This document shows, one piece after another, positions 50,953 to 54,360 of a stretch of 64,000 bases of DNA (position 1 is its first letter; the number at the start of each line of letters is the position of its first letter). A model generated the notes under the pieces. That model saw only the letters and a list, made by a program, of their open reading frames with translations. It ran no database searches and was not told the DNA's origin. The DNA is from Chloroflexi bacterium HGW-Chloroflexi-2 (lineage in GTDB: Bacteria > Chloroflexota > Anaerolineae > Anaerolineales > Anaerolineaceae). The DNA lies in assembly GCA_002840735.1 (NCBI GenBank), contig PHBY01000008.1, positions 62,001 to 126,000 on the forward strand, in the 5' to 3' direction. The position numbers and the translations under genes were made by a program.

Positions 50953-51903
50953 TTAAGGTAAGAATTGAACCGCAGCGGTCATCCCCCAGCGCATTTGCGG
51001 ATCCATTTGATCCAGTGAAATGGTAGCTGTGTAGGTGGTATCACCACGTTTTTCTTCATACACCATATCGATTTGGGTAACCTGACCGCTGAAGGTTAGT
51101 TTGGGGAGTGCATCCAGAACAACCTCTACTTTTTGGCCGACCTGAACTTTGACCACATTGATTTCGGTGAGATTGTCGGTTTTGATTTCCCAGTTTACGA
51201 AGTCAGCGATGGTCATGACCGGGAACCCGGCATTGATGCGTTCACCAGCTTTGATATTGATGTTTGTAACCGTTCCACCCACATTCGCCTTGAGTTCATA
51301 ACTATCAATTATTGATTGAGCACTGAGCATGGCTGTCATAGCAGTGGTGAGACGCGATTCGGCAGCTGCCAGGCGATCCTTATCAATCCCATTACCTTCT
51401 TCAAAAATGGCTAAATGGCCTTTTGCTAATTCCAATGTTGCCAGCGCAACATCCAAACGTAATTGATTTTCTTCACTGGACTCAGCATCAAAATCTTCCT
51501 GAGCTTCATCGACCAGGGTTTGTGCGTTGAAAACATCCAATCTGCTTTGTGCAAGATTGACATCCGCGCTTTTTTTCAATTCATCCACTGCCAGTCGGGC
51601 ATTTTGAACTTCGGTCTGATTTTGAGAAAATGCAACCAGGGCTGAGTACGGCACATCTAATTTGGCGATTGTCTGACCAATTTCGACGGTGTCGCCTTCC
51701 TGTACCAGCACTTGAATTACCTGGCCGGAAACAGAAAATGACTGATCCAGATAGTTGGCTGGTATCAAACGCCCTTCAGTGATTAATTTATTTGGTTGAG
51801 CGATAGTTTCGGCAACAACAGGTTTTTCTGCTTTTGGTGCACATCCTGCCATTAAGATGGCAGCCAATGTAAATAACACAAAAAATATTGATAATTTCTT
51901 CAT
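50953..51903 (-). CDS. HlyD/MacA-family efflux adaptor lipoprotein
   Basis: The 316-residue protein has a lipoprotein signal with cysteine after ILMAGC (about residue 21). The barrel-sandwich halves VQEGDTVEIGQTIAKL and AGERINAGFPVMTIADF flank a coiled-coil hairpin rich in Ala, Glu and Leu (about residues 75-190). A beta-barrel domain closes the protein. Such adaptors link inner-membrane transporters to the outside. A four-base overlap (ATGA) joins it to the upstream redoxin-like gene. Confidence 0.93.
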   Translation of the reverse strand: MKKLSIFFVLFTLAAILMAGCAPKAEKPVVAETIAQPNKLITEGRLIPANYLDQSFSVSGQVIQVLVQEGDTVEIGQTIAKLDVPYSALVAFSQNQTEVQNARLAVDELKKSADVNLAQSRLDVFNAQTLVDEAQEDFDAESSEENQLRLDVALATLELAKGHLAIFEEGNGIDKDRLAAAESRLTTAMTAMLSAQSIIDSYELKANVGGTVTNINIKAGERINAGFPVMTIADFVNWEIKTDNLTEINVVKVQVGQKVEVVLDALPKLTFSGQVTQIDMVYEEKRGDTTYTATISLDQMDPQMRWGMTAAVQFLP

Positions 51904-52523
51904 TCTCTCTCCTCTTTATCCTGAACTCCAGGTCCCACCGGACCTTCAAATGGTTGATCCCAACTGGACGAAAGCACCCCGCTCAGCAACAGGTCCAATG
52001 GGGGATGATCTGCAATGTGATCGTAATAATAGGGTAATAAAATTTGCCCGGATGTACTGATAATAAAAGTCCCGGACATCTGCATGGCATCCTGTCCTTC
52101 TGGTGGAATCTCCACCTGATAGCCTTTCTTGCGTGCCCTGGATATTGCTGACCATACCTTTGGATTGAGGAAAGTTTGGAATAAATTACCTCTTTCCAAT
52201 CCATATGCTTCATAGGCTTTCCGTTCGGGATCACAAAGCATCAATAATCCCGGGGCAAATTTCTCGGCAAACAAGGCTGTCGTTTCCGGTGTGCCCTGAT
52301 TGATAACCGCCAGCGATAATCCAGCCTTTACGATCTTTTCACGCCCTTCCACCAATTCATCCAGCATTTCTTTGCACTGTGTACAACCGAAATGGCGAGT
52401 GAATGCCAATATCAATGGCTTTTCCTGCCAGAGGGTGGAGAGTTTCAACGGTGTCCCTTCCACATCCAGCAACTCGGCATCCGGGGCATTGCGATAAAAG
52501 TTTAGATGTTTATTCTTGGTCAT
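51900..52523 (-). CDS. Peroxiredoxin-like protein, AhpC/TSA_2 type
   Basis: The 207-residue thioredoxin-fold protein has the redox motif CTQC in LAFTRHFGCTQCKEMLDEL. A strand-helix pattern follows with INQGTPETTALFAEKFA and a cis-Pro-like GTFIISTSGQILLPYYYD, as in the PRXL2/AhpC-TSA_2 group. It should be a cytoplasmic thiol oxidoreductase. AAAGGAG precedes the ATG. It begins the efflux operon and is divergent from the selenoprotein redoxin gene, so the 212-base gap may hold shared oxidative-stress control. Confidence 0.9.
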   Translation of the reverse strand: MTKNKHLNFYRNAPDAELLDVEGTPLKLSTLWQEKPLILAFTRHFGCTQCKEMLDELVEGREKIVKAGLSLAVINQGTPETTALFAEKFAPGLLMLCDPERKAYEAYGLERGNLFQTFLNPKVWSAISRARKKGYQVEIPPEGQDAMQMSGTFIISTSGQILLPYYYDHIADHPPLDLLLSGVLSSSWDQPFEGPVGPGVQDKEERE

Positions 52524-52735
52524 ATGTCTCCTTTTTGTTTTGATACGGTAATTTTAGTTTGGTTTCAGCCAGACGTAATAAGATTGTATAAAGTTTGTAG
52601 AACTAGAATCTTTCTTTTCCAGCTGATAGACTGTACAATATAAAAAATGATTAAGTTTTGAATTAGTTTCAGTGAATAATAGAAAATAAAGTAGCTTGAG
52701 ATCGTTAATTTATTTAGGGAAACCGGGAGGAAATT

Positions 52736-53206
52736 ATGCCAAAAGTATCAATCAGTGCACCAGCGCCAGATTTTACGCTGGAGGATTACGAGGGGAAAAC
52801 TGTGCGATTGTCAGATTTCAAAGGCAAATCAAACGTGATATTAATCTTCAACAGGGCATTCACCTGACCATTCTGCCGGGCGCATATGGCGCAGTTGCGT
52901 CAAGATTATCAAGAGTTCGTGGATCGTCAGGTAGCCCTTCTGGTATTGGGACCAGAAAACGCAGATGCATTCAAAAAGTATTTCGAAAAAAATGATTTAC
53001 CCTTTATTGGGTTACCGGATCCCAAAGCCAGTGTGCTCAAACTGTATGGACAGGAAGTCAATCTATTCAAGTTGGGTCGTATGCCGGCCCAGGTCATTGT
53101 GGATAAGGAAGGCATGGCCAGGTTTGTGCACTACGGTCATGCCATGTCTGATATCCCCGAAAACGCTGAGTTGTTGGCATTGATAGACGAAATCAATAAT
53201 AATTAA
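52736..53206 (+). CDS. Redoxin-family selenoprotein (in-frame TGA read as selenocysteine)
   Basis: The frame from the ATG at 52736 (GGAGG upstream) to 53206 is interrupted once, by TGA at 52865-52867, codon 44. The codons on both sides read IFNRAFT-(TGA)[11 protein letters not shown]. In redoxin-family homologues this position is a Cys or Sec in C/U-P-F-C, and the second Cys is residue 47. The rest ([44 protein letters not shown]) is a complete AhpC/TSA-like domain of 156 residues. GCGC-ATATG-GCGC beginning about 13 bases after the TGA could be the bSECIS stem. The selA-selD machinery is not in this window. Confidence 0.88.
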
Positions 53207-53210
53207 GGGT

Positions 53211-53250
53211 CTGGGTGTTTTTACCGGTCTCCACCGATAAAAACACCCAG
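53211..53250. repeat. Long hairpin of the GGGTGTTTTT type
   Basis: CTGGGTGTTTTTA (53211-53223) pairs with TAAAAACACCCAG (53238-53250). The stem continues by CGGT/ACCG past a mismatch, closing on CTCC. It follows the selenoprotein stop by four bases and may act as terminator or mRNA-stabilising element. Its arm GGGTGTTTTT recurs in the hairpin at 58801. Confidence 0.75.
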
Positions 53251-53279
53251 AAACCTCTTCTAGAAATAAGGAAAATTAT

Positions 53280-53621
53280 ATGGATATTATTTTCATATTA
53301 AAAGTTATTGCCGCCATGTTAACCATTGCAACCGGTTTACTGGCACTGATCAAACCCTCTGCAGTTCCCGGATTTACCGGGCTTTCTTACAGTGGCCCCA
53401 GGGGTATTTCCGAGGTTCGTTCGATTTTTGGTGGGCTCTTTATTGCCCTGGGATCAGCACCTTTCGTATTGGGTGAAGCAGCATTTGGTGTGTTAGGTTT
53501 CTCATACCTGGGGATTGCAATTGTGAGACTTTTTTCGATTTTCTTTGATAAATCCAAAGAACAATCCAATCTGATCAGTTTGGGAATTGAAATTGTGTTG
53601 GGAATCATTCTGATACTTTAA
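53280..53621 (+). CDS. DUF4345-like small membrane protein
   Basis: The 113-residue product has four hydrophobic helices and the conserved-looking loop GISEVRSIFGGLFIALG between helices 1 and 2. This pattern resembles DUF4345 proteins. The function is unknown. AAGGAAAA precedes the ATG. It probably shares a message with the selenoprotein redoxin gene, separated by the hairpin at 53211, and is followed by a terminator. Confidence 0.82.
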   Translation: MDIIFILKVIAAMLTIATGLLALIKPSAVPGFTGLSYSGPRGISEVRSIFGGLFIALGSAPFVLGEAAFGVLGFSYLGIAIVRLFSIFFDKSKEQSNLISLGIEIVLGIILIL

Positions 53622-53918: not shown

Positions 53919-54335
53919 ATCTGAGGGTGCTCATCCTGTGGAAATTTATCCTGTGGGTACTTATCCTGTGGATACTTATCCTGTGGATCAATCCACAGGA
54001 TACTTAAGTTCAAACCAATTGAAAATGGTTAAAAAAACAACCGGTTTTGAACCGGTTTGAGATTGAGTATCCATGGATTTGAATCCATGGATGAGCGAGC
54101 TCAATTAGAATCCATGGATGAGCGAGCTCAATTATTGGTATTATGGAATTTACCTTCCTAACCCGTGGAAATGTATCCTGTGGACACTCATCCTGAGGAT
54201 ACTTATCCTGTGGGTGCTTATCCTGTGGATCAATCCACAGGATAGTAAACCCCAAACCATTTGAAAATGGTTAAAAAAACAACCGGTTTTGAACCGGTTT
54301 GAGATTAAGTAACCATGGATTTGAATCCATGGTGC
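53919..54335. repeat. Duplicated array of nested palindromic hairpins
   Basis: Two copies, offset by about 242 bases, each contain the same elements in order. First come three 15-base units ATCCTGTGGNNNNTT (53933-53977 and 54175-54219). Hairpin A is TATCCTGTGGAT-CA-ATCCACAGGATA (53977-54002, 54219-54244). Hairpin B is AACCAWTTGAAAATGGTT. Hairpin C is AACCGGTT-TTG-AACCGGTT. Hairpin D is ATCCATGGATT-TG-AATCCATGGAT (54069-54092), closely similar at 54312-54333. Copy 1 is followed by two 27-base direct repeats that carry CCATGGATGAGCGAGCTCA. C and D are each a short palindrome written twice. Between copies one stem pair of D changes from T-A to A-T. No coding function is evident. Confidence 0.9.
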
Positions 54336-54360
54336 TTTTGGAAATCTTACCCAAAACCCC

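Follow-up and report, generated by a model that had tools for sequence, protein, structure and literature searches.

The gene at positions 52736–53206 of the window (the 64,000-nucleotide stretch of Chloroflexi bacterium HGW-Chloroflexi-2 analysed here) almost certainly encodes a small selenoprotein of peroxiredoxin fold, in which selenocysteine (Sec) would be placed at an in-frame UGA through SelB and an mRNA hairpin. This reading brings together an otherwise open frame, a conserved TGA, full Sec machinery in the genome, a covarying hairpin and the predicted fold. Less expected than the selenoprotein itself is the history of its putative bSECIS, which appears to have changed place within the coding sequence of one branch of the family. 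Coordinates are collected in Table 1.

Table 1. Features of the predicted selenoprotein gene and its neighbours (window positions)
Feature	Positions	Strand	Basis
Predicted selenoprotein gene, 156 residues, Sec at 44, UxxC, AhpC-TSA/Redoxin domain	52736..53206	+	Frame, profiles, homologues, predicted fold
Shine-Dalgarno GGAGG, 5 nt 5' of ATG	52726..52730	+	Read from sequence
In-frame TGA, probably decoded as selenocysteine (U44)	52865..52867	+	TGA in 47/47 site-covering loci, own gene counted
Cys47, predicted partner residue of U44 (UxxC)	52874..52876	+	Invariant in 34/34 aligned proteins
Putative bSECIS stem, 5' arm UGGCGC	52887..52892	+	Covariation, hairpin counts
Putative bSECIS apical loop AGUU, G second then U; spacing from UGA 25 nt	52893..52896	+	
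Putative bSECIS stem, 3' arm GCGUCA	52897..52902	+	Covariation, hairpin counts
SelL-related redox protein, Cys form (CTQC), opposite strand	51900..52523	-	NF040769 142.6 bits, cut-off 120
DUF4345 protein, downstream neighbour	53280..53621	+	Profile match

The frame runs for 156 codons from the ATG at 52736 to a TAA ending at 53206, interrupted solely by the TGA at 52865–52867, exactly as the first-pass annotation had placed all three; read through, its product carries the active-site run T-U44-P-F-C47. The same annotation had noted a good ribosome site, which is the GGAGG five bases ahead of the ATG, and a coding character continuous across the TGA. Both sides of the TGA do evolve as coding sequence: dN/dS was 0.042 on the 5' side and 0.106 on the 3' side against one homologue (L022), and 0.107 and 0.052 against another (L023); comparisons with L024 and L025 were saturated and gave no dS. 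The read-through protein matches the Pfam families AhpC-TSA (PF00578; 84 bits, cut-off 26) and Redoxin (PF08534; 63 bits, cut-off 26.6). An NCBIfam scan returned no model at or above its cut-off, the best match being NF040769 (SelL-related; 82.6 bits over residues 9–105, cut-off 120). Since no NCBIfam model reaches its cut-off, an annotation that stops at the TGA would probably list a 106-residue fragment lacking the active site.

A contig search for homologues returned 18 loci, 16 of them from organisms that, by the taxon names of their records, we take to be Chloroflexota; of the other two, L029 comes from an unclassified bacterium and L033 from Acidaminobacter hydrogenoformans. This distribution points to an Anaerolineales-type Chloroflexota genome for the window as well. 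Thirty further loci, including the window's own gene, were taken from 400 genomes of the phylum. TGA occupies residue 44 in all 47 loci that cover the site (the window's gene and 46 homologues); a 48th (L039) stops short of it and was left out. By sequence comparison, such conservation of TGA at one residue goes far beyond chance. Across 34 aligned proteins A10, C44, P45, C47, R55, G114, P117, G126 and P141 are invariant, U being shown as C. One TGA-form homologue (L087, G263:C1) carries a second stop, a TAA, later in frame, and is possibly a decaying copy or a sequence error.

We then considered a wider set of 127 loci, made up of the close loci, more distant matches and a paralogue (L074). 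The alignment placed 124 of them; residue 44 was unaligned in L104 and L121, and L137 had no usable match. Matches from the 400 genomes, here and in every count built on them, are those among the matches listed. Residue 44 is TGA in 95 placed loci (own gene included), Cys in 10 and Thr or Ser in 19, the last being mostly plain TxxC peroxiredoxins of PrxQ type; Trp occurs in none of the 124. The first-pass annotation had held that the TGA falls where this family has its redox Cys or Sec, and had proposed alignment with homologues as a check: U or C stands at the site in 105 of the 124 loci.

The genome (4.1 Mb, 99.87% complete) contains SelA (546 bits), SelB (350 bits) and SelD (347 bits), each above its cut-off, together with a tRNA-Sec (69.9 bits, also above cut-off; Sec with anticodon TCA according to ARAGORN), all four on a single contig (C7), so that everything sought under selA, selB, selC and selD is present. 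A second match above the tRNA-Sec cut-off proved to be a tRNA-Ser (ARAGORN). Among the matches listed for the 400 genomes, SelA was found in 65/65 genomes with TGA verified at residue 44, against 38/49 in which none of the listed matches has TGA at that residue (Fisher p = 4.5e-5). The latter group counts G283, whose match (L140) has Cys at residue 44 and its TGA elsewhere, and which has SelA; G015, which also has SelA, was left out of the comparison with its unplaceable match (L137). Because SelA is common in the phylum (322/400 genomes), its presence alone is weak evidence.

An in-frame TGA occurs in 4 of the 12 PF00578 matches of this genome, namely the window's gene, C39:6437, C14:105672 and C2:121147. 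The C14 gene encodes a Sec-form SelL-related protein (U-L-P-C; NF040769, 171.2 bits) and the C2 gene (L101) a further peroxiredoxin, with TGA at TFV-U. Read by eye, these two genes carry the hairpins GCAC-AGUU-GUGC and CGGC-AGUU-GCCG, respectively. SelD itself (L017, G000:C7:53947) has an in-frame TGA (U-A-S-K), and its mRNA offers two competing hairpins.

Published limits for bSECIS elements (PMC13188914) comprise a loop of 3–9 nt, a stem of 4–16 bp, G in loop place 1 or 2, 16–37 nt from UGA to loop and an MFE of at most -7.5. The hairpin UGGCGC-AGUU-GCGUCA, found when a bSECIS was looked for after the TGA as had been suggested, lies within them (loop 4 nt, stem 6 bp, G second, 25 nt, -8.1 kcal/mol when folded alone). 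The stem-loop that the first reading had called possible is upheld by sequence comparison but not by single-sequence folding: the sequence of the window's gene folds no better than synonymous versions (z 0.27; z 0.29 for the 48 nt that follow the TGA), and its mRNA has a somewhat more stable competing fold (-10.6 kcal/mol over 48 nt vs -8.1 for the hairpin alone). Over the 47 loci the median z was -1.17, with p ≤ 0.05 in 13. The relevant hairpin is thus UGGCGC-AGUU-GCGUCA and not the minimum-energy fold of the 40–50 bases after the TGA.

Codon identity exceeds expectation at codons +8, +9 and +10 after the TGA by 0.73, 0.49 and 0.64, against a background with mean 0.033 and sd 0.058 over 111 columns. 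These codons are near-frozen over the 47 loci (GCG for 46/46 Ala, CAG for 34/34 Gln and TTG for 40/43 Leu), with TTG making up about one in five Leu codons in the pooled usage; in the window's gene they form the hairpin UGGCGC-AGUU-GCGUCA. Relatives keep the stem through paired changes (GACGC/GCGUC, CGCGC/GCGCG, CUCGC/GCGAG and GGCAC/GUGCC). Both sides have changed in 4 of the 6 stem pairs and 99.4% of cells pair, as counted over 29 distinct rows whose best AGUU hairpin has a 4-base loop starting at +26, a choice that favours structure. Shuffles reached four of the five covariation measures in 0/500 cases and the fifth in 1/500, and sliding the partner breaks the pairing.

Among the matches listed, an AGUU hairpin with a stem of 4 bp or more is present in 76 of the 95 TGA forms, in none of the 10 Cys forms and in none of the 19 Thr/Ser forms. 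When these proteins' codons were shuffled synonymously, such a hairpin arose in 1082 of 47500 cases (2.3%). The loop starts at +26 with four bases in 52 of the 76, at +26 with five bases in 9 and at +17 in 14; the remaining one, L153, has a +17 hairpin with AGCU and was counted through a hairpin at +37. The set rule missed 19 TGA forms, including near-form loops CGUU (L063, L069 and L099) and GGUU (L098 and L125) and two loci with AUUU (L036 and L051), which lack the G that the published model requires; the other misses are mostly relatives near 30% identity.

A covariance model built on the hairpin gave two matches in the 4.1 Mb genome when 150 of its 1505 first-look candidates were scored: the window's gene, which is among the model's rows, and the TGA-bearing paralogue on C39, which is outside them; SelD and the Sec genes on C2 and C14 were not found among those scored. 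An Rfam scan of 52700–53250 returned a chance match to RgsA alone (14 bits vs a gathering score of 88.4). A small UGCC-GGCA hairpin nearer the TGA was given no weight, since it shares bases with the invariant Cys and near-invariant His codons, whose conservation beside the TGA is largely explained by the protein alone. Six distant TGA-bearing relatives (L136, L138, L144, L146, L147 and L150) show by eye a different hairpin after the TGA, CAGCUC-GUG-GAGCUG, with a paired change to CAACUC-GUG-GAGUUG, which is perhaps a second type of SECIS. A literature search on selenocysteine and SECIS in Anaerolineae found nothing.

A lone in-frame stop in an otherwise good gene resembles a fresh nonsense change, and the TGA might have replaced a Cys codon, by mutation or sequencing error, so that the whole protein is no longer made. 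The conserved TGA refutes this: the same TGA is common to 46 homologous loci, dN/dS is low on either side of it and the hairpin covaries, and we regard a pseudogene as extremely improbable. The true gene might instead be the 106-residue ORF starting at the ATG at 52886, with the stretch 5' of the TGA a leader or chance. Such a mechanical ORF (52886–53206) does exist, but no ribosome site was seen by eye ahead of 52886, GGAGG precedes 52736, and the shorter product would omit the active site. Codons 1–43, moreover, evolve under purifying selection (dN/dS 0.042 against L022, 0.107 against L023) and contain the first strands of the predicted fold, which makes the shorter gene very unlikely.

A changed code or a suppressor tRNA could also have the TGA read as an ordinary amino acid such as Trp or Cys, and would keep the frame open; nothing further speaks for it. 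Of the 48 mechanical ORFs in the 64-kb window that reach 200 aa, 12 end in TGA, and as it is an ordinary stop for these long ORFs, general reassignment is unlikely. The site holds TGA, Cys or Thr/Ser in the 124 placed loci and never Trp, and the genome has dedicated Sec machinery, leaving this explanation next to no probability. Selenocysteine thus remains the preferred reading of the TGA.

The predicted selenoprotein family shows a second hairpin position. Eighteen TGA forms carry GCGCGC-AGUUG-GCGCGC or a close version of it (three with CGUU, one with AGCU, the rest with AGUU), and here the loop begins 17 nt past the TGA rather than 26. This is a shift of exactly three codons toward the TGA, and the encoded Gln-Leu (or Ser-Leu) is shifted too. 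The Sec columns of all 93 alignment rows coincide, and codons +1 to +14 are gap-free in the alignment of the 47 close loci. In a tree of the 93 rows the 18 loci lie on one side of one branch (SH-aLRT 99), which midpoint rooting sets among the rows with the +26 hairpin; they fall on one side of a branch again in a tree without the Sec column and the next 15 (97). The two trees were quickly made and hold 83 of the 95 TGA forms, leaving out 11 under 31% identity, mostly rows without an AGUU hairpin, and L087, which is too short. Among three hairpin classes the least number of changes was 4 in both trees, the least possible being 2.

From these comparisons the SECIS probably moved once within the coding sequence, by nine bases or three codons, with Gln-Leu moving along; the direction rests on the rooting of the tree. 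Seen in the peptide, U-xx-C-xx-H-M-A-Q-L-R likely became U-xx-C-R-A-Q-L-A-R-L-R, with Sec, Cys and frame unmoved. Few substitutions would suffice for such a move, because the old hairpin's left arm and the new hairpin's right arm overlap. The window's gene has GCGC-AUAUG-GCGC (4 bp) at the upstream place and may well carry a rudiment of the second position already. If this is true, an RNA signal re-wrote the protein beside the active site.

The Cys rows L083–L086, L103 and L105 are neighbours of L097, a Sec row, with further Sec rows around them, and Cys-form L083 keeps a hairpin remnant of 5 bp with loop AGCU. The group, which includes this Cys-bearing relative, would offer a natural series for a question not easily approached in other systems: how an intragenic mRNA signal constrains, and can move along, the encoded protein. 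Remnant SECIS elements in Cys homologues are described for other families in PMC1794560. For moved SECIS elements nothing on point was found in titles or the starts of abstracts, which does not prove absence.

An AF2 model of the protein (pLDDT 94) predicts a peroxiredoxin fold. Among Foldseek's first 1000, the closest solved structures are Bcp4 (Z 24.4), AhpE (Z 23.8) and Bcp1 (Z ~24), over 148–153 residues. In the model U44-P-F-C47 sits where the first long helix begins. The typical peroxiredoxin catalytic motif is PxxxTxxC; here the corresponding run is R40...U44-P-F-C47, with Arg at the Pro place and Sec at the Thr place. Alignment with the 19 Thr/Ser forms likewise matches Sec44 with the Thr of peroxiredoxins and Cys47 with their peroxidatic Cys.

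For Sec insertion, SelB binding, the catalytic cycle, its substrate and its electron donor we infer the following course. SelB carrying Sec-tRNA-Sec would bind the mRNA hairpin UGGCGC-AGUU-GCGUCA, selenocysteine would be inserted at the UGA, and the ribosome would continue to the TAA at 53206 rather than halting after 43 residues. Sec44 would attack a disulfide or peroxide, Cys47 would resolve it as a selenenyl-sulfide, and a thioredoxin-type donor would reduce the latter. Other UxxC proteins suggest by analogy that the attack most likely comes from Sec44, with Cys47 as the resolving residue.

Gene neighbours tell little about function. Within the flanks that the loci carry (up to 3 kb per side), 3 of the 17 named loci (L022, L023 and L032) have a SelL-related gene near the selenoprotein gene, and DUF4345 occurs in 6 of the 17, directly downstream in 5 of those; a weak match at L029 was the selenoprotein gene itself. 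Between the selenoprotein gene and DUF4345, a near-perfect inverted repeat seen by eye at 53210–53251 (TCTGGGTGTTTTTACCGGT...ACCGATAAAAACACCCAGA) is perhaps a terminator. Further on, 53921–54340 holds two similar blocks of short tandem repeats, which neither precede nor overlap a strong gene, with a 15-base unit (ATCCTGTGGATACTT) and a 27-base unit at 54077–54134.

Several known redox proteins invite comparison. Iodothyronine deiodinase-like proteins have a T-U-P run at their Sec, as does the window's protein, which also has a weak match to NF038285 (residues 6–70, E 2.8e-8); that match, however, scores 33.6 bits against a cut-off of 250, and Cys47 is invariant in the group described here. Peroxiredoxins carry TxxC, and those of the AhpE/Bcp type (1xvw, 3drn and 3hjp) resemble the predicted fold over its whole length (Z 23.6–24.4), but here U stands at the Thr place and Cys47 at that of the peroxidatic Cys. 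SelL and SelL-related proteins (NF040769) give the best NCBIfam match and have their redox motif at the same place, yet the match stays below the cut-off and covers residues 9–105 only; the true members in this genome are the Cys-form gene at 51900–52523 (142.6 bits) and the Sec-form gene at C14:105672 (171.2 bits). Redoxin family selenoproteins (PF08534; PMC13188914, and 'Prx-like 3' of PMC2398784) share UxxC and the PF08534 match of 63 bits, whereas the window's protein matches PF00578 better (84 bits); the likeness is one of description.

The Prx-like thiol:disulfide oxidoreductase selenoproteins correspond most fully, as they are described with PF00578, a distant kinship to peroxiredoxins, UxxC replacing TxxU and a bSECIS after the UGA. 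The Sargasso Sea paper (PMC1088965) reports such Prx-like proteins, and families of this kind also appear in PMC2398784 ('Prx-like 1') and in Table 1 of PMC13188914. The first-pass proposal of a redoxin selenoprotein with T-U-P-F-C therefore stands in its Sec site and redoxin domain and is refined to the 'Prx-like' UxxC kind rather than the TxxU of Sec-peroxiredoxins. Matching that description, the window's gene belongs to an already known kind of selenoprotein, the comparison with its representative (WP_010940744.1) being by description and not by orthology. Unlike the Prx-like proteins as described, the group here is mainly from Chloroflexota and has a putative SECIS with an AGUU loop, and it brings to that kind a large set of redox proteins, most of them using Sec.
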